Shown: positions 6,223 through 46,719 of the stretch, one piece after another | Position numbering within the stretch: the first letter of the stretch is position 1 | Layout of the letters: each line of letters begins with the position of its first letter | DNA from: a virus | DNA length: 47,215 nucleotides | Virus record (IMG/VR): IMGVR_UViG_3300046007_002078 | Coordinates: 1 to 47,215 of that record | Strand: one strand, 5' to 3' | Made by a program: the position numbers and the translations under genes | Notes under the pieces: model-generated | Seen by the model: the letters and a program-made list of their open reading frames with translations, nothing else | What the model was told of the DNA's origin: nothing | Databases searched by the model: none

Positions 6223-7776
6223 ATGACAGAAGCAATCGTAAAGAATCTTAACTTTGGCGAAGATGCAAAGAATAAGATATTCGAAGGTATTACTAAATTA
6301 ACTAGAGCCGTAAGTTCAACACTTGGTGCTAGTGGTAAATGTGTAATATTAGAAGATGGAGCTGGTAGGCCAGTAATTACAAAGGATGGTGTAACAGTAG
6401 CGGATAGTATTATACTATTAGATCCAGTAGAAAATATGGGTGCAACGTTACTTAAGGAAGCCGCAAGAAAAACAGTTAAAGAAGCTGGAGATGGTACAAC
6501 AACTGCAACAGTATTGACCCATTCTATTTTACATCATGCTTATAAAGTTCCAAAAGGTACTAGTAGCAGAGAATTAAAAGAAGGTATTGAGAATGCCACA
6601 GAAAAAGTAATTAAATATTTAGAAAGTATTGCAATACCAGTATCAGGAGATATGATTGATAACGTAGCTACTATATCTGTTAATAACGATCCTGAATTAG
6701 GTAAAGTTATTGCGGATGCTTTTAGAGCTGCTGGTGACAATGGTATTGTAATGATGGAAATGTCAGATCTTAATACTACAGAAATAGAGGTTATTGATGG
6801 TATTCAATATGATAAAGGATTAGTTAATTCGCACTTTGTAACTAATGCTTCAAAGAAAGCGGCAGAGTTAGATAATGCTTTAGTTCTTATCATTGAATCA
6901 CCAGTTGAAAATATTAGACAAATACAAGGTGTTTTAGAACACTGTATGAAAATAAAAAAACCATTACTTATTATTGCAGATATGGAACCACAAGTTCTTT
7001 CGGTAATTGCAATGAATAAAGTTAAAGGTAATTTAAAAGCAAACGTTATTAATGCACCAACATACGGTGTTAATAAAAAAGATACATTAGATGATTTAGC
7101 ATTATTAACTGGTGCTACAATTATTAACGAAGATCTTGGAGATGATATGGATCTTATAACTCCAGAACATTTAGGATCATGCATTAAAGCTGTAACAACC
7201 GATGCAGAAACAATTATTCAAGTTGGAGAATATTCACAAGAAGTATTGGATCTTATTGATACAGTAAAAAAACAATTAGAAACAGCTAAGAACCCGGCCG
7301 AGGTAATTAGATTGGAAAGAAGATTAGCAAGATTATCAGGTAAAGTGGCTGTCGTAAAAGTTGGCGCTGGATCCGATATAGAATTAAAAGAAAAAGCAGA
7401 TAGAGTTGAAGATGCAATCTGTGCAACAAAAGCGGCTATTAAAGAAGGTATTGTACCAGGCGGAGGAATTGCTTTATTAAATGCTGCAATGTATATTGGT
7501 GGATTAACAGAAGGGGAATGGGTATTACTAGATGCAATCAAAGCTCCTTATCATACAATATTATTAAATGCAGGAATTGAAATACCAATACCACAAGAAG
7601 AAGGCTTAGGTTTAAATGTTATAACTGGTGAAACAGTTAATATGATTAAAGCCGGTATTATTGATCCATTACTTGTAACAAAGTCTGCATTAAAGAATGC
7701 TTCTTCAGTTGCTACAACTATTTTATCAACCGATTGTGTAATCAATAATCTTAGAATTAATGAAGGCAATAGGTAA
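6223..7776 (+). CDS. groEL: Phage GroEL-like chaperonin
   Basis: 517 residues, full-length group I chaperonin that would fold proteins, probably phage virion proteins, in an ATP-driven ring. Equatorial ATP-binding motifs are present: KDGVTVA at 54-60, GDGTTTATV from G89 with D90, and VPGGG around 411-415. The catalytic Asp in RVEDA is D397 (E. coli D398). The apical domain is recognisable (KPLLIIAD, NKVKGNLKANVINAPTYG). It is about 30 residues shorter than E. coli GroEL and lacks the Gly-Gly-Met C-terminal tail, ending in LRINEGNR. It is divergent from host chaperonins along its whole length, which argues against recent capture. It overlaps groES by 17 bases, in the order groEL then groES, the reverse of most bacterial operons. 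Confidence 0.93.
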   Translation: MTEAIVKNLNFGEDAKNKIFEGITKLTRAVSSTLGASGKCVILEDGAGRPVITKDGVTVADSIILLDPVENMGATLLKEAARKTVKEAGDGTTTATVLTHSILHHAYKVPKGTSSRELKEGIENATEKVIKYLESIAIPVSGDMIDNVATISVNNDPELGKVIADAFRAAGDNGIVMMEMSDLNTTEIEVIDGIQYDKGLVNSHFVTNASKKAAELDNALVLIIESPVENIRQIQGVLEHCMKIKKPLLIIADMEPQVLSVIAMNKVKGNLKANVINAPTYGVNKKDTLDDLALLTGATIINEDLGDDMDLITPEHLGSCIKAVTTDAETIIQVGEYSQEVLDLIDTVKKQLETAKNPAEVIRLERRLARLSGKVAVVKVGAGSDIELKEKADRVEDAICATKAAIKEGIVPGGGIALLNAAMYIGGLTEGEWVLLDAIKAPYHTILLNAGIEIPIPQEEGLGLNVITGETVNMIKAGIIDPLLVTKSALKNASSVATTILSTDCVINNLRINEGNR

Positions 7777-8023
7777 TAATATAGTTATTTTGCCTAAGAA
7801 GGTAGAAGCTACAAAGAAAACAAAAGACGGTCTTATTTTAAAAGAAAAAGATAGTGAAGATATTAGATATAAAGAAGCAATAATTGTATCGATCAGCGAT
7901 GAAATAAAAGTCATTAAAGAAGGTGACGAAATATATTATGATAAACACGCTGGCCATACTATTGAATTTGAAGGTAATAAATATACAGTTATAAAACTAC
8001 AAGATATAGTTGTTGTATTATGA
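7760..8023 (+). CDS. groES: GroES-like co-chaperonin
   Basis: 87 residues, the usual GroES length. The start MKAIGNNIVILPKKVE matches the GroES beta strand 'RPLxDRVxVxxxE'. KTKDGLIL sits where the mobile loop and its GGIVL-type hydrophobic tripeptide lie. KEGDEIYYDKHAGHTIEFEG followed by YTVIKLQDIVVVL matches the 'VGDxVxFxxxxGxxxxxxxxxYxxxxExDIL' core. It would cap the GroEL ring encoded just upstream. The start overlaps the groEL end by 17 bases and the stop overlaps the next start (ATGA), so translation is probably coupled. Confidence 0.85.
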   Translation: MKAIGNNIVILPKKVEATKKTKDGLILKEKDSEDIRYKEAIIVSISDEIKVIKEGDEIYYDKHAGHTIEFEGNKYTVIKLQDIVVVL

Positions 8024-11355: not shown

Positions 11356-11575
11356 TGTCATTAGAAAAATAAGTATTGGGGCTGACTATAAGAATGAAGC
11401 AATGCACTATTCAGTACATCAAGAAGTATACGGGGGACATAAAATCTCCCATATACTATTTGAGGAAGCGGATAATTCATACAATATTTATATAAAGAAA
11501 AGCGATGAGGTTATGCCGTGGAAGAAATTTAACAGTCACATGGCTATTTCAGTGGAATATGATTTAGAATACTAA
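11348..11575 (+). CDS. Hypothetical small phage protein
   Basis: 75 residues. 'ISIGADYKNEAMHYSVHQEV' is followed by 'YNIYIKKSDEVMPWKKF' and an acidic 'SVEYDLEY' end. It appears to be a small beta-rich domain. Not recognised beyond a vague resemblance to unnamed proteins preceding phage co-chaperonins. It overlaps the upstream coiled-coil gene by 8 bases and the next gene by 1 base (TAATG), so expression is coupled to the co-chaperonin and terminase genes. Confidence 0.6.
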   Translation: MANVIRKISIGADYKNEAMHYSVHQEVYGGHKISHILFEEADNSYNIYIKKSDEVMPWKKFNSHMAISVEYDLEY

Positions 11576-12192
11576 TGAGAAGTGCATTTAGCTTTATTGT
11601 TAAACCTGTAGGTAACAGATACGACAATACAGTTAAAGTTGGTGATAAAGATTTAGTTGTTAACACATCGATTGAATCTTTTAAAGCTGTTAATAATATG
11701 GCTGAAGTTTTAGCTGTACCCTTATTTGGAACAACTGATATTAAAGTTGGAGACAAAGTAATAATACATCATAATGTTTTTAGAAGATTTTATGATATAA
11801 AGGGTAAACCAAAGAACAGTAGATCATACTTTGACGAAGACAAGTATTTTGTAGATTTTGATCAGATATATTTATATGGTGATGTTGGTAATTGGAAAGC
11901 TTTTGGCGACCGTTGCTTTATACAACCAATAAAAAATAATAACAGTTTTAGCTTAGAAAAAGAGCAAAGACTTATTGGAATACTAAAATATGGTAATAGC
12001 TCCTTAAATGAAGTGAAAATAGTACCAGGTGACTTAGTAGGATATAAACCATACGGGGAATTTGAATTTATTATAGAAGGTAAACGATTATACTGTATGA
12101 AATCAAATGATATTGTAATTAAATATGAATATAGAGGAGACGAAGCAGAATATAATCCAAGCTGGACACAAAGCGGTATTGGAGTTAATTAA
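11575..12192 (+). CDS. Phage co-chaperonin with two GroES-like domains
   Basis: 205 residues, likely a virion-assembly co-chaperonin acting like T4 gp31 with a GroEL ring. The N-terminal half (about 1-108) has 'FSFIVKPVGNRYDN', 'AEVLAVPLFG' and 'DIKVGDKVIIHHNVFR', the GroES barrel pattern with the 'VGDxVxxH' turn. The C-terminal half (about 112-190) repeats it: 'DRCFIQPIK', 'EQRLIGILKYGN', 'KIVPGDLVGYKPYGEFEF', 'KRLYCMKSNDIVIKYE', the last matching the GroES 'YRMxxxDIL' end. Similar proteins are annotated as co-chaperonin GroES in marine phages. It overlaps the small terminase-like gene by 68 bases. A second, standard-size GroES lies at 7760. Confidence 0.7.
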   Translation: MRSAFSFIVKPVGNRYDNTVKVGDKDLVVNTSIESFKAVNNMAEVLAVPLFGTTDIKVGDKVIIHHNVFRRFYDIKGKPKNSRSYFDEDKYFVDFDQIYLYGDVGNWKAFGDRCFIQPIKNNNSFSLEKEQRLIGILKYGNSSLNEVKIVPGDLVGYKPYGEFEFIIEGKRLYCMKSNDIVIKYEYRGDEAEYNPSWTQSGIGVN

Positions 12193-41886: not shown

Positions 41887-43755
41887 CTATACAATCTCAC
41901 AATTACCTCCTCCGCATGCTGCTGAATCAGTAAAGTTAGTGTTATCTTGTATTTCCACTACTTTTGATAGATCAACATCTTTTAATGTAGACATCATTTG
42001 TTCATAGACTTCTTTAGTACAATCCTCAAATGGAGTTTGTTTATATGTACCACCATTATACGGCAAAACAGATAATCCATTATAGTACTCTTTGTTTGCC
42101 CACATCCATTCACCTACAATTTTCCATTCATCATCTCTGACAGAAACCGTACAAGATACATTATGAGTATTGTTACCTTTCTCATGACCAGTTTTAACCC
42201 AGTCTTTAGATATAAGCTTTACTCTTTCTAATAAATCTAATGTAGATTCATATCTTGTTATAGCTCCTTCTGGTGCTTTCTGAGGGACTGAAATTACTGA
42301 TTGTAATGTAGGATTAAAATATTCATCTTCTAACAATTCTGGATGATTGATTGCAAGATAAGTGTATATTGCTTCATTCTTGCCTAATCGCATTCTTCTG
42401 ATGTAATAGTCGTTATGCCACGCATGGATTCCGCTTGATGTTCCAAGTACCAAGCTAGTAGTACCTGCAGGCTTAACAGCTGTTGTACGGGCTGCAGCAT
42501 TAATTCCAAGCAATTTAGCTGTTTCTCTGTTTGTTTCTTTAACAACTTCTGCTGCTTCTTCATAATTTAATTCTAGATTTGATTTAGACGCAATACCTGT
42601 CATTGATACTCCAAGCAATGCATCTTTTTCTGTGTTCTTTCTCCATATATCACGAAGATAATGGAAGTCTGAATATGACGCTTGTAACGTGCCTAAGAAT
42701 GATGCTGCTGATGATCTTGCATTAAAATCTTCTTGGCTTTCAATATTAGACATATTAATTTCTGTTAGATTACAGAACTGATACGGTCGTAAAGCAATTT
42801 CACAACAAGGATTAGTACCCCAATCTTTATCATTAGTAAGATATATTCCGGGTTCGCCTGAGCCAGAAGCTTCAATTCTTTCCCAAACTTTGTCAAATGT
42901 TTTCTTATCAATTTTGTGTCTTAAAAGTACTACTGAATTATTTGCTCTACCTCTTTGTGGGTTATCTTCCCACCAGCTACCAGCTTTACAATTTAACATT
43001 GCCGTACTATCTAAGTCAAACAATGAAATCATTGCTGCTCTTCTAATTCCACCTGCTAAAACCGCATCGGCAATATGACACTGAATATCATGACATTCAA
43101 TATCTGTTAATTTAGATCTATCCTCTTTTTCACGAAGGATAGCTTCAATCTTAACCAATGCCAATCTTAACGGCTCTGGTCCTGGTGCTTTACCTCCAGC
43201 TGTAACAAGCAATGCTCCTTTTTGTCTAATATCAGAAAGATCAAATTCAATATGTGATGTTAATTCCCCTGTATATGATTTGAACAATGTCTTAATTGCA
43301 TCGGCCCAACCAATAATACTATCCTGTACAACATAACGTTTCTTACGATCGTAGTTTGGTTTTCTTATTTCAGGTAATTTATCAATGTTGTGATTCTGGA
43401 CTGAATACCCCACACCAGTTCCGCCAAGAAGTAAAAACATAGTTTCAGCAAAACTACGGATATTATCGACAGGTAAAAAAGCACAATTATAAATGCGAGC
43501 ATTATTGAGTTCAATAGCTTTACCACCAAATTGTAGGCTTCGCATCGAAGGTAAAACTTTTTTATTGAAGACAAAATTTTTGTATACTTGTTCAATTGAT
43601 TCTTTCATTTGTGGAAACTTCGACACGTGCATCTCCATATTCCTGGTTACTAATTCTTCCCACGTTTCTCTACGTTCTTTTGCTGGCACATACTTTGCAT
43701 ACTTTGTGTATACGGTAATATCACTTAAGATCTGCTTATCTAGGCTTAAACTCAT
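41887..43755 (-). CDS. nrdJ: Class II ribonucleotide reductase (adenosylcobalamin-dependent)
   Basis: 622 residues, reduces ribonucleoside triphosphates to deoxy forms for phage DNA synthesis. The key cysteines of monomeric class II enzymes (Lactobacillus leichmannii RTPR) are visible: C91 in YNCAFLP, N315-P-C317-C-E319 with C317 as thiyl-radical site, C328 exactly 11 residues later (as C408/C419), and a C-terminal CGGGNC pair (C614, C619). 'GGTGVGYSVQ' and 'PAGTTSLVLGTSSGIH' are typical substrate loops. It is about 115 residues shorter than RTPR. It needs vitamin B12 from the host or medium. It is the last gene of the minus block; upstream is an 84-residue gene with a 1-base gap. Confidence 0.92.
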   Translation of the reverse strand: MSLSLDKQILSDITVYTKYAKYVPAKERRETWEELVTRNMEMHVSKFPQMKESIEQVYKNFVFNKKVLPSMRSLQFGGKAIELNNARIYNCAFLPVDNIRSFAETMFLLLGGTGVGYSVQNHNIDKLPEIRKPNYDRKKRYVVQDSIIGWADAIKTLFKSYTGELTSHIEFDLSDIRQKGALLVTAGGKAPGPEPLRLALVKIEAILREKEDRSKLTDIECHDIQCHIADAVLAGGIRRAAMISLFDLDSTAMLNCKAGSWWEDNPQRGRANNSVVLLRHKIDKKTFDKVWERIEASGSGEPGIYLTNDKDWGTNPCCEIALRPYQFCNLTEINMSNIESQEDFNARSSAASFLGTLQASYSDFHYLRDIWRKNTEKDALLGVSMTGIASKSNLELNYEEAAEVVKETNRETAKLLGINAAARTTAVKPAGTTSLVLGTSSGIHAWHNDYYIRRMRLGKNEAIYTYLAINHPELLEDEYFNPTLQSVISVPQKAPEGAITRYESTLDLLERVKLISKDWVKTGHEKGNNTHNVSCTVSVRDDEWKIVGEWMWANKEYYNGLSVLPYNGGTYKQTPFEDCTKEVYEQMMSTLKDVDLSKVVEIQDNTNFTDSAACGGGNCEIV

Positions 43756-44366: not shown

Positions 44367-44764
44367 TCAGAATTTTTTTGAGGTTTATATAAGGTTCTTG
44401 TGTCACCATTATCTTTCATGTGCTTTTTAAACATTTTCCAGCGTAAAGGAAATGAGTCATTAGCCCTACCCTTAGTTTCTATAATAAAACTTTCACCTTC
44501 AAAATCTGGTGTGTATTTCAAATTAAGTACTTTCTTATTACCTCTGTTTATAAAATCACCTTTGCTATTAGATTGTCTTTCAAAACAATCGTTATCAAAA
44601 TTAAAAGCAGGTATTAGTTCATAAGTTTTGTACTCATAATGAAATTTTATACCAGCATCCTGCAATGCTTTGTACATATACTTTTCAAGACCGGATGCGA
44701 AAGTGATGCCATCATACACCACTTTCTTTGACACAACTGGTCCTTTCTTTTTAGTTCTTTTCAT
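44321..44764 (-). CDS. Endonuclease I-like Holliday junction resolvase
   Basis: 147 residues, close in size to T7 gp3 (149). It has the PD-(D/E)XK layout of that enzyme: E27 in SGLEKYMYKAL, D87 in YTPDF, and E96-T-K98 in FIIETKGR, equivalent to T7 E20, D55, E65 and K67. The role would be resolving branched replication intermediates, and perhaps degrading host DNA. The basic N-terminus (MKRTKKKGPVVSKK) and a C-terminal 'FKKHMKDNGDTRTLYKPQKN' fit DNA binding. It starts 14 bases inside the upstream MazG-like gene. A related possibility is a general phage PD-(D/E)XK nuclease of unknown specificity. Confidence 0.72.
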   Translation of the reverse strand: MKRTKKKGPVVSKKVVYDGITFASGLEKYMYKALQDAGIKFHYEYKTYELIPAFNFDNDCFERQSNSKGDFINRGNKKVLNLKYTPDFEGESFIIETKGRANDSFPLRWKMFKKHMKDNGDTRTLYKPQKNSECDETVRLILLKQKD

Positions 44765-45008
44765 TCTTCTCTATTCTTCTTATTACAGCATCCATAAGAT
44801 CTTCTGAATAAACTTCTTTAGCTTTCTGTAAATAAAGAACAGCATCCATTAATTCTTCTTGTAAATGATTAAGCCATTCAAAAATTCTTGATTGGTCTTG
44901 TTCTAATGTAACGCCGTATTTTTTGTAACCTACATCAGATCTTGAAATGAATTTATCTACTACTCGTTCAACTACTGGGTCTCGAAACTTAATACTTTTT
45001 TCTGTCAT
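44751..45008 (-). CDS. Small all-alpha NTP pyrophosphohydrolase-like protein
   Basis: 85 residues. 'RSDVGYKKYGVTLEQD' is followed by 'IFEWLNHLQEELMDAVLYLQ' with E51-E52-x-x-D55, the metal-binding helix of the MazG/dUTPase-like all-alpha NTP-PPase superfamily. This short form is a common phage family ('YGxTL ... WLxHxQEELMDAxxYL') that probably clears unwanted dNTPs. It is too short for both canonical helical motifs, so a dimer or tetramer is expected. It lies between the nuclease and the GIY-YIG/MazG fusion in the nucleotide block. Substrate is unknown. Confidence 0.7.
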   Translation of the reverse strand: MTEKSIKFRDPVVERVVDKFISRSDVGYKKYGVTLEQDQSRIFEWLNHLQEELMDAVLYLQKAKEVYSEDLMDAVIRRIEKNEKN

Positions 45009-45009
45009 A

Positions 45010-45939
45010 TTATAAAGTTGTTTTAATTGTTACACCTGGATATGGTTTCATTAATATTGATTCATGATAACCTGTTGTTTTATTATGCTCTGGAAAATTA
45101 GGATATTGTGTTATTGTCGTAAAAGTATTTGTATCTGTATCTTTAACAAAAGATCCATTGACCATTTTACCTGTACGGTTTTTAATAATAGTATATGCTG
45201 ATAAAACACAATCTTCTACTTTTAATCCTTCTATTGCAGCTAAGTTTGTTAATACAACCATCATATCACCAATAGCATCTATAAATTCTTCTCTATCATT
45301 TTTAAGTATTGCTCTAGCTAATTCACCTGCTTCTTCTTGTAATTTAACAAATTGTGTTTTAGCATCACCATTTCTATATAATCCACGTTCATCAGCCCAC
45401 TCTCTTATTAAATCATAAACATTTGGTTGTTCTTTTGCTGGAGGGGTTAAAGTTTCTTCTATATGCTTAATAGGATTAAAATTGGTTGCTACGGCTTCAT
45501 GTAAGGCTTTATTATATATAAAGCATCGATTAGGATTGAACATTGAAACTTTTACATTATTCATTATCCAGGCAATCAATTCTTTATTTAATAGATAATT
45601 ACCAAACGGGGTTTCAAAAGTTAATCCAATTGCATCGTTTAATTGCCCTTTTAGTTTATTCACCGGACATGGAAATGTTGTTGTTTGATCTGTTACATTT
45701 AATTTCATTTTATTTGATTTTTTAGGTTTATTAATTACTTTTTTATAAGAATCTCGATCTACCTTGTAGCCGTATAAACGTTGAAGCTCTGATTCTCTCC
45801 TTGATATATAATCTATATCTTCAGATGCTTCCAGAACTTCGTATTCTCCAATCTTATAGCCTTGTGCTATAGTTACTCTCTTATTAAGATTACGTGTAAC
45901 TCCTATTTTTTTAGTCGGAATGTGATAAATAAAATACAT
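45010..45939 (-). CDS. GIY-YIG-like plus MazG fusion protein
   Basis: 309 residues with three parts. Residues 1-65 look like a GIY-YIG nuclease core: FIYH (3-6), KIGVT (11-15), R21, and RRESELQ with E49/E51 as candidate catalytic Glu. Residues about 80-165 are a linker region with a possible small domain (LLNKELIAWIMNNVK). Residues about 172-265 are MazG-like: Q-E202-E203-AGE206-L, then EFIDAIGDMM (E218, D221, D225) and IIKNRTGKM. MazG hydrolyses NTPs or dNTPs to monophosphates. The protein would clear nucleotides and possibly nick DNA. It lies 9 bases from the thyA-family gene and 1 base from the MazG-like gene. Confidence 0.75.
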   Translation of the reverse strand: MYFIYHIPTKKIGVTRNLNKRVTIAQGYKIGEYEVLEASEDIDYISRRESELQRLYGYKVDRDSYKKVINKPKKSNKMKLNVTDQTTTFPCPVNKLKGQLNDAIGLTFETPFGNYLLNKELIAWIMNNVKVSMFNPNRCFIYNKALHEAVATNFNPIKHIEETLTPPAKEQPNVYDLIREWADERGLYRNGDAKTQFVKLQEEAGELARAILKNDREEFIDAIGDMMVVLTNLAAIEGLKVEDCVLSAYTIIKNRTGKMVNGSFVKDTDTNTFTTITQYPNFPEHNKTTGYHESILMKPYPGVTIKTTL

Positions 45940-45948
45940 AAATTTGAT

Positions 45949-46719
45949 TTAAACGGCTACTTTTGCAGTAATTACTGGGCCGTGATTATAATTAATTAGT
46001 TTTAACTCGTTTAATTTATATTCGTATGTTGGTTGTACATACATTGGTTGTTGTAAATATTTATCAACAGCTTCTATTTGATTATCATAAATGTGTGCAT
46101 CAATAATCTGTACCTCTAACAAATTTGGTTTATACTCCGTTAATGTTGCTACATATAAAAGTATTTTAGTAAACAATGCCATATCATAAGGTATTCCTAA
46201 AAATAAATCCCCTGATCTTTGTAATACAAACATATTAAGTTTATCACCTTCTATAAAGAATTGAAAATATAAATAACAAGGTGGTAATCGCATTTCTTTA
46301 ATTTGTGCAGGATTCCATAAACTAATAATATGTCTTCTACTGTCCGGCGTTAATATTATACTTTGTATTAATAATTGCATTTGATCAATGCCTTGGCCAT
46401 TAAAGTCTCTCATCTGATAACCATATACAGGACCAAGATCTCCATTTTCATCTGCCCAAGCATCCCATATCTTTACGCCAGCTTCTTTAAATCGTTTTGT
46501 ATTTGTTTCCCCATTCATAAACCATTCAAATTCTGTATCAAATGTTTTTTGAAACATCTTTCTACCTGTTATCAAAGGAAAATGTTTTGAAACATCAACT
46601 TTTAAACTAGCATTGAATATTGATTTACTACCAACTCCAGTTCTATCAGCTCGTTTAGTACCTGTAAGAATGCATTCTTGCAATAGATCTCGATATTGCT
46701 CTTCATATTGTTGCGTCAT
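45949..46719 (-). CDS. Thymidylate-synthase-family enzyme, dCMP-type (putative dCMP hydroxymethylase or methylase)
   Basis: 256 residues from the chosen start. The family catalytic set is intact: RTG at 26-28, W85, R128-R129, C148 in LPPCYLY, R168-S169-x-D171, and H209/Y211 in DAHIYDNQ. At the position of the dUMP-selecting Asn (E. coli N177, in PFNIASY) it has D179 (PYDMALF), as in T4 dCMP hydroxymethylase (D179). The Asn to Asp change is known to switch Lactobacillus casei thymidylate synthase toward dCMP. So the product is probably hydroxymethyl- or methyl-dCMP, not dTMP. Start is uncertain: 46719 follows the upstream stop by 1 base; 46734 and 46761 are in-frame alternatives that overlap it. 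Confidence 0.8.
   Translation of the reverse strand: MTQQYEEQYRDLLQECILTGTKRADRTGVGSKSIFNASLKVDVSKHFPLITGRKMFQKTFDTEFEWFMNGETNTKRFKEAGVKIWDAWADENGDLGPVYGYQMRDFNGQGIDQMQLLIQSIILTPDSRRHIISLWNPAQIKEMRLPPCYLYFQFFIEGDKLNMFVLQRSGDLFLGIPYDMALFTKILLYVATLTEYKPNLLEVQIIDAHIYDNQIEAVDKYLQQPMYVQPTYEYKLNELKLINYNHGPVITAKVAV

Follow-up and report, generated by a model that had tools for sequence, protein, structure and literature searches.

The window (the whole stretch of DNA analysed, namely the complete IMG/VR record IMGVR_UViG_3300046007_002078 of 47215 bases) encodes, in an operon with a MazG gene, an enzyme of the thymidylate synthase (TS) superfamily that we consider, with modest confidence, to have been re-tuned from dUMP to dCMP, with 5-methyl-dCMP as the predicted product and with 5-methylcytosine DNA that would be poorly cut by restriction enzymes. 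The prediction for the phage is that it probably makes modified cytosine for viral DNA, most likely 5-methylcytosine. The observed residues, fold, clade, gene linkage and weak palindrome avoidance speak for this reading, in which the dCMP substrate, the methyl product, the dCTPase role of MazG, the phosphorylation, the incorporation and the protection are predicted steps. If true, cytosine replacement would no longer be a trait of a few cultured phages alone and would also occur in a large uncultured group akin to Flavobacteriia phages; modified cytosine in viral DNA would help a phage to resist bacterial DNA-cutting defences. The gene and its two key codons are as follows.

45949..46719, minus strand: ThyA-family enzyme, predicted dCMP C5-methylase, with Asp and Tyr at E. 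coli positions 177 and 147, respectively (Pfam PF00303, residues, model)
46183..46185, minus strand: codon of Asp179 (position 177 in E. coli), which specifies the base (computed from the frame starting at 46719)
46273..46275, minus strand: codon of Tyr149 (His147 in E. coli), adjacent to the catalytic Cys148 on its C-terminal side (computed from the frame starting at 46719)

The open reading frame 45949-46719 lies on the minus strand, and the plus strand of the same region is full of stops. With the ATG at 46719 as the start, the protein has 256 aa, while the alternative in-frame starts ATG 46734 and TTG 46761 would give 261 aa and 270 aa, respectively. The sequence-only reading that preceded this work had picked out a real gene, but left its strand unstated and overlooked the change of His147 to Tyr. 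The protein matches Pfam Thymidylat_synt (PF00303) with 252 bits (cut-off 24.3), and its AlphaFold2 model, for which the protein and its viral relatives were the input, has a pLDDT of 93.2 and a pTM of 0.92; the TM-score of this model to E. coli TS is 0.93, and its best fold matches are TSs. As judged from the profile, the modelled TS fold and the catalytic Cys, Arg and Glu, the protein is a member of the TS superfamily. Residues R26, E63, W85, W88, Y99, R128 and R129, as well as C148, Q167, R168, S169, D171, H209 and Y211, are invariant in a 20-row alignment and are the equivalents of TS catalytic and binding residues, which agrees with the earlier claim that all catalytic residues are kept. 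The identity to phage and bacterial ThyA is ~40%, the closest match in INPHARED is about 42% identical, and no cultured relative was found.

Asp179 of the protein is part of the motif QRSGDLFLGIPYDMALF and aligns with Asn177 of E. coli ThyA and with Asp179 of T4 gp42, as had been proposed from the sequence. A second pocket change concerns His147, which is replaced by Tyr (LPPCY). Both Asp177 and Tyr147 are present in 52/52 viral-contig relatives (51-99% identity), in none of which was the canonical dUMP-type combination of Asn177 and His147 found; the latter is present in all of the 80 bacterial ThyA proteins found with the same query, and in the more distant viral matches that were checked (L054-L074). 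Five of the six peptide patterns used in the viral-contig scan do not contain the Asp, so the sample of relatives is hardly selected on Asp177. Of the 52 relatives, 42 encode this Asp by GAT and 10 by GAC, so the residue stays the same although its codon varies. Neither chance nor faulty sequencing accounts for Asp177, since the residue is fixed in 52/52 relatives and both Asp codons are in use.

The significance of these two positions is indicated by the MetaGPA study of sewage and coastal phage DNA, in which residues 177 and 147 were the top two TS residues that separated cytosine-modified from unmodified contigs (PMC8670742). A link between Asp177 TS and modified cytosine is already on record in the literature. 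According to PMC8670742, which cites the original report, the Asn177Asp substitution switches the dUMP enzyme to 5-methyl-dCMP formation, and Asp179 of T4 gp42 was reported as the key determinant of the preference for dCMP over dUMP (PMC6400193). If confirmed, the window enzyme would be a naturally occurring equivalent of thymidylate synthases engineered from Asn to Asp.

In a ThyA tree of 92 rows, obtained by a quick search, as was the tree without trait columns, the window clade is recovered as a single branch (SH-aLRT 99), which three further viral Asp177 groups (motifs QRSADVFLGLPYD, FRSSDLFLGLPYD and MRSLDLFVGLPYD) join at 82-94. Asn177 ThyA and the XP12-like and T4-like enzymes stand apart from this assembly; the deep nodes of this tree are only moderately supported (82-94). 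When the columns around 147 and 177 were removed, the D177/N177 label required 4 changes, as compared to about 26 with shuffled labels. Clustering with dUMP-type ThyA, named beforehand as the outcome that would speak against a dCMP-type enzyme, was seen in neither tree. The dCMP-type pocket proposed by the sequence-only reading is thus backed by the fixation of D177 and Y147 across the clade and by the grouping with viral D177 enzymes, and gains further support from the linked MazG gene and the weak palindrome avoidance. A pattern scan (L084-L203) also revealed several other uncultured viral groups with Asp177 ThyA-like enzymes, nearly all paired with MazG; the large group with the motif QRSADVFLGLPYD keeps His147.

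It is improbable, in our estimation, that the enzyme is still a dUMP thymidylate synthase with a tolerated Asp177, raising the dTMP supply of an AT-rich phage. Its identity to phage and bacterial ThyA, the retention of all other TS residues and the best fold matches would fit this role, position 147 can differ in an Asn177 TS (Val in PDB 1bko), and the related phage MW202828 carries ThyX, while the window clade is devoid of it (0/44 records), which leaves room for a thymidylate role of the window-clade gene. The reported effects of Asn177Asp (PMC8670742) and of gp42 Asp179 (PMC6400193), the invariance of D177 and Y147 in 52/52 relatives versus that of N177 and H147 in bacterial ThyA, the position of the clade outside N177 ThyA and the MazG linkage that sets D177 genes apart argue against it. 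The idea that the phage has another thymidylate synthase, which would free the ThyA-like gene for a different role, was rejected given the same ThyX count.

The genes downstream of the ThyA-like gene, on the same strand, include the following.

45010..45939, minus strand: MazG/PRA-PH-domain protein of 309 aa, proposed dCTP pyrophosphohydrolase (PF03819, 27.6 bits; PF01503, 27.6 bits)
44751..45008, minus strand: 85-aa protein (PHROGs of unknown function)
41887..43755, minus strand: ribonucleotide reductase of class II type, same module (phrog_367, 435.7 bits; Pfam Ribonuc_red_lgC and RNR-II insertion domain)

The MazG gene begins 9 bp downstream of the ThyA-like gene. It is present in 44/44 records searched (that of the window included), and in 52/52 loci it lies less than 3 kb from the ThyA-like gene, in 49 of them less than 300 bp. 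The linkage was counted in two ways, with a home-made profile and with the curated Pfam MazG model. With the former, the three sister Asp177 groups scored 39/46, 25/28 and 6/7 contigs with a MazG-like gene no more than 300 bp away, the XP12-like contigs 7/9, and the Asn177 ThyA contigs only 9/106. With the latter, MazG was detected in 34/34 sister Asp177 records, in 33 of which it adjoins the ThyA-like gene on the same strand, but exceeded the cut-off in only 1/40 Asn177 ThyA records; it was detected in 0/5 XP12-like records, the MazG of which is divergent. Of the new evidence obtained here, this difference between Asp177 and Asn177 genes carries the most weight. A single origin of the linkage, followed by its retention, is possible if the four Asp177 groups form one clade.

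Phage T4 removes dCTP with gp56. A human dCTP pyrophosphatase is a member of the MazG-like superfamily (PMC4491611), and a putative role of the window MazG protein in the conversion of dCTP to dCMP follows naturally. The contrast between sister Asp177 records (34/34) and Asn177 records (1/40) in the Pfam count suggests that the ThyA-like and MazG proteins form a module leading from dCTP through dCMP to modified dCMP. The linkage likewise supports the view that the ThyA-like gene belongs to a nucleotide module of the phage, and TS has been described to co-occur with PRA-PH domains in modified contigs (PMC8670742). A single-sequence fold model of the MazG protein was poor (pLDDT 39) and was left out of the argument. 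The combination of Asp177 with an adjacent MazG gene offers a usable rule for sorting phage ThyA, mostly labelled in databases simply as thymidylate synthase, into a probable dCMP type and a dUMP type.

Certain other features of the module deserve mention. The first ~70 residues of the MazG protein (45730-45939, minus strand) have by eye a GIY-YIG-type look, with no Pfam match. The 85-aa protein, in which an EExxD-like helix motif reminiscent of MazG-type proteins can be seen by eye, is encoded in 51/52 loci; its cluster (cluster 6) is present in 12/12 genomes compared, and also in MW202828. Within one gene neighbourhood, the ribonucleotide reductase changes class: the window and six relatives have a class II enzyme, and three other relatives have class I NrdA/NrdB (clusters 95/96 in G024, G030 and G034).

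Residues outside the base pocket bear on the product. The signature of hydroxymethylases comprises an acidic residue (Asp or Glu) at the third position ahead of the catalytic Cys, a Ser/Thr-x-Tyr motif and the loss of the TS C-terminal tail (PMC6400193). At the first of these positions no Asp or Glu was found in the window clade, where Leu is present throughout. Ser/Thr-x-Tyr was not found at the site of gp42 residues 94-96, occupied in the clade by Pro-Val-Tyr and in a few members by Lys-Val-Tyr, and the C-terminal tail is kept, 51 of the 52 proteins ending with VAI, VAV or IAV. Given the missing signature, a dCMP methylase is predicted, and not the hydroxymethylase that the sequence-only reading had named. 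Judged from these residues, 5-methyl-dCMP would be a likelier product than 5-hydroxymethyl-dCMP, and the base pocket appears to be of the dCMP type while the chemistry residues appear to be of the methylase type. In hydroxymethylation, water instead of hydride ends the reaction, giving 5-hydroxymethyl-dCMP and regenerated THF, and 5-hydroxymethylcytosine replaces cytosine. We regard this activity as unlikely for the window enzyme, although D177 is common to it and T4 gp42, the lack of dihydrofolate reductase (DHFR) in 44 records would fit a THF-sparing reaction, and the signature is derived from few enzymes, the XP12-type ones also being devoid of Asp/Glu at Cys-3. Apart from the three signature sites, the identity to gp42 of only 24%, the separate tree branch and the failure to find any hydroxymethylcytosine-decorating sugar or carbamoyl transferase in three near-complete relatives speak against it. 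A ribonucleotide substrate, as that of the CMP hydroxymethylase MilA, was rejected: the MilA study ties Ser169 and the Arg pair to deoxyribose substrates, and the window enzyme keeps Ser169 and R128/R129, which are of the deoxyribose type, where MilA has Ala and Lys (PMC5175136). At the base-specifying position itself, MilA has Asp, as does the window enzyme (PMC5175136).

In the pathway that we propose for a methylase, the ribonucleotide reductase would provide deoxynucleotides, and the MazG-family pyrophosphohydrolase would cleave dCTP to dCMP, both supplying the substrate and lowering unmodified dCTP. Asp177 of the ThyA-like enzyme would recognise the N3 and 4-amino side of cytosine, with Tyr taking the place of His147 in the pocket at the 4-position. 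The methyl group would come from 5,10-methylenetetrahydrofolate, and hydride transfer from the folate would finish the reaction as in TS, so that the product would most likely be 5-methyl-dCMP. Host or unrecognised kinases would make 5-methyl-dCTP, which would be inserted in place of dCTP, and the resulting DNA would be poorly cut by host restriction enzymes. Two findings speak against this pathway: a Pfam search of 105 accessory proteins of three near-complete relatives revealed no nucleoside monophosphate kinase, and DHFR, which would restore THF once a methyl group has been transferred, was found in 0/44 clade records, hence the host must supply both activities, unless the kinase is the product of an unrecognised gene. 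The same search of 105 proteins revealed no sugar transferase, carbamoyltransferase or DNA methyltransferase; a plain 5-methyl modification needs no decorating enzyme and thus fits their lack. We consider it very doubtful that 5-methyl-dCMP is mainly deaminated toward dTMP/dTTP, as a second thymidylate pathway with DNA left unmodified. It is true that dCMP deaminase accepts 5-methyl-dCMP, that the XP-12 deaminase turns 5-methyl-dCTP into dTTP (PMC12088426), and that the phage genomes are AT-rich (GC 0.31-0.36). However, a gene of the dCMP deaminase family was found in 0/44 clade records, so this route would need a host enzyme, and it leaves the weak palindrome avoidance unexplained.

That avoidance was expressed as the mean log2 observed/expected of 12 GC-containing 4-bp palindromes. 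Its values range from -0.20 to -0.44 in 31 window-clade genomes, from -0.35 to -2.37 in 25 terminase-related genomes or contigs that lack PF00303 (one of which has ThyX), and equal -0.04 in DLP4 of the XP12 family; the window clade represents one evolutionary contrast in this comparison. The observed/expected ratio of GATC is 1.02 in the clade versus 0.23 in this terminase-related set, while CATG is still low in the clade (0.55). The weak avoidance fits DNA that has no need to avoid restriction sites, in a supportive but not diagnostic way. Its use as a diagnostic trait was abandoned, and the statistic counts as support only, since Asn177-ThyA contigs of mixed hosts (median -0.30) overlap the window clade and the Asp177 FRSSD group still avoids GATC (0.47). 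If confirmed, the enzyme would predict which environmental phages resist restriction enzymes and are possibly mis-sampled by methods needing unmodified cytosine. The strong avoidance of GATC in the terminase-related phages without the ThyA-like gene (L446-L516, MW202828; observed/expected about 0.21-0.23) suggests heavy restriction pressure on this phage family.

Among the systems compared, the XP12 type (Xanthomonas phage XP12 and Stenotrophomonas phages AXL1 and DLP4 of Mesyanzhinovviridae, represented in our comparisons by DLP4) shares with the window Asp177, a changed residue 147 and a TS-like gene beside a nucleotide pyrophosphohydrolase gene, and XP12 DNA contains 5-methylcytosine in place of cytosine (PMC9206674). 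Membership of the window enzyme in the XP12 clade was nevertheless ruled out by its separate branch; the identity is 28%, and residue 147 is Pro in XP12-type enzymes, whose Cys-3 residue is Asn and whose C-terminus differs. DHFR and dCMP deaminase genes lie beside TS in the XP12-type operon while the window clade has neither, so the window module is no copy of it, and the parallel may be convergent, as a BLAST comparison of the DLP4 and window MazG proteins gave no significant match. T4 gp42 agrees with the window enzyme in its TS fold and in the Asp that specifies the base, but lacks the C-terminal tail that the window enzyme keeps, and a MazG gene is adjacent in 0/6 T4-like contigs, unlike in the window clade; a T4-type hydroxymethylase was rejected, as its signature is missing in the window enzyme. 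The cytosine-modified MetaGPA contigs have TS changed at the same positions 177 and 147 and a co-occurring PRA-PH gene (PMC8670742); they were chosen by the resistance of their DNA to enzymatic treatment, whereas the window clade is compared with their published description from its sequence alone. Canonical ThyA agrees with the window enzyme in fold, catalytic residues and C-terminal tail, but differs in having Asn177 and His147, in its tree branch and in being rarely MazG-linked. It is quite possible, if short of probable, that the two-gene ThyA(Asp177)-MazG operon, spread over several uncultured phage groups (that of the window and its three sisters), replaces cytosine with 5-methylcytosine by a pathway distinct from those of T4 and XP12, in which MazG would convert dCTP to dCMP and a methylase with TS chemistry would form 5-methyl-dCMP, with no decorating enzymes involved.

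No relevant publication on modified DNA and thymidylate synthase in Flavobacterium phages emerged from a literature search. The closest annotated genome to the window is that of podovirus MW202828 (terminase 63% identical), followed by Flavobacterium elemo phages and then by Maribacter, Cellulophaga and Tenacibaculum phages; a host from Bacteroidota is therefore likely. Two of the 44 clade records have terminal repeats, of 102 and 127 bp, and are probably complete genomes. The near-complete relatives G018, G034, G024 and G006, in which no DNA polymerase family was recognised, encode a T7-like primase-helicase, an ERF annealing protein, an exonuclease and a resolvase-like nuclease. In the window itself (6223-8023 and 11575-12192), there are genes for a GroEL-like chaperonin (Cpn60) and Cpn10, and for a second GroES-like protein directly before the terminase gene.
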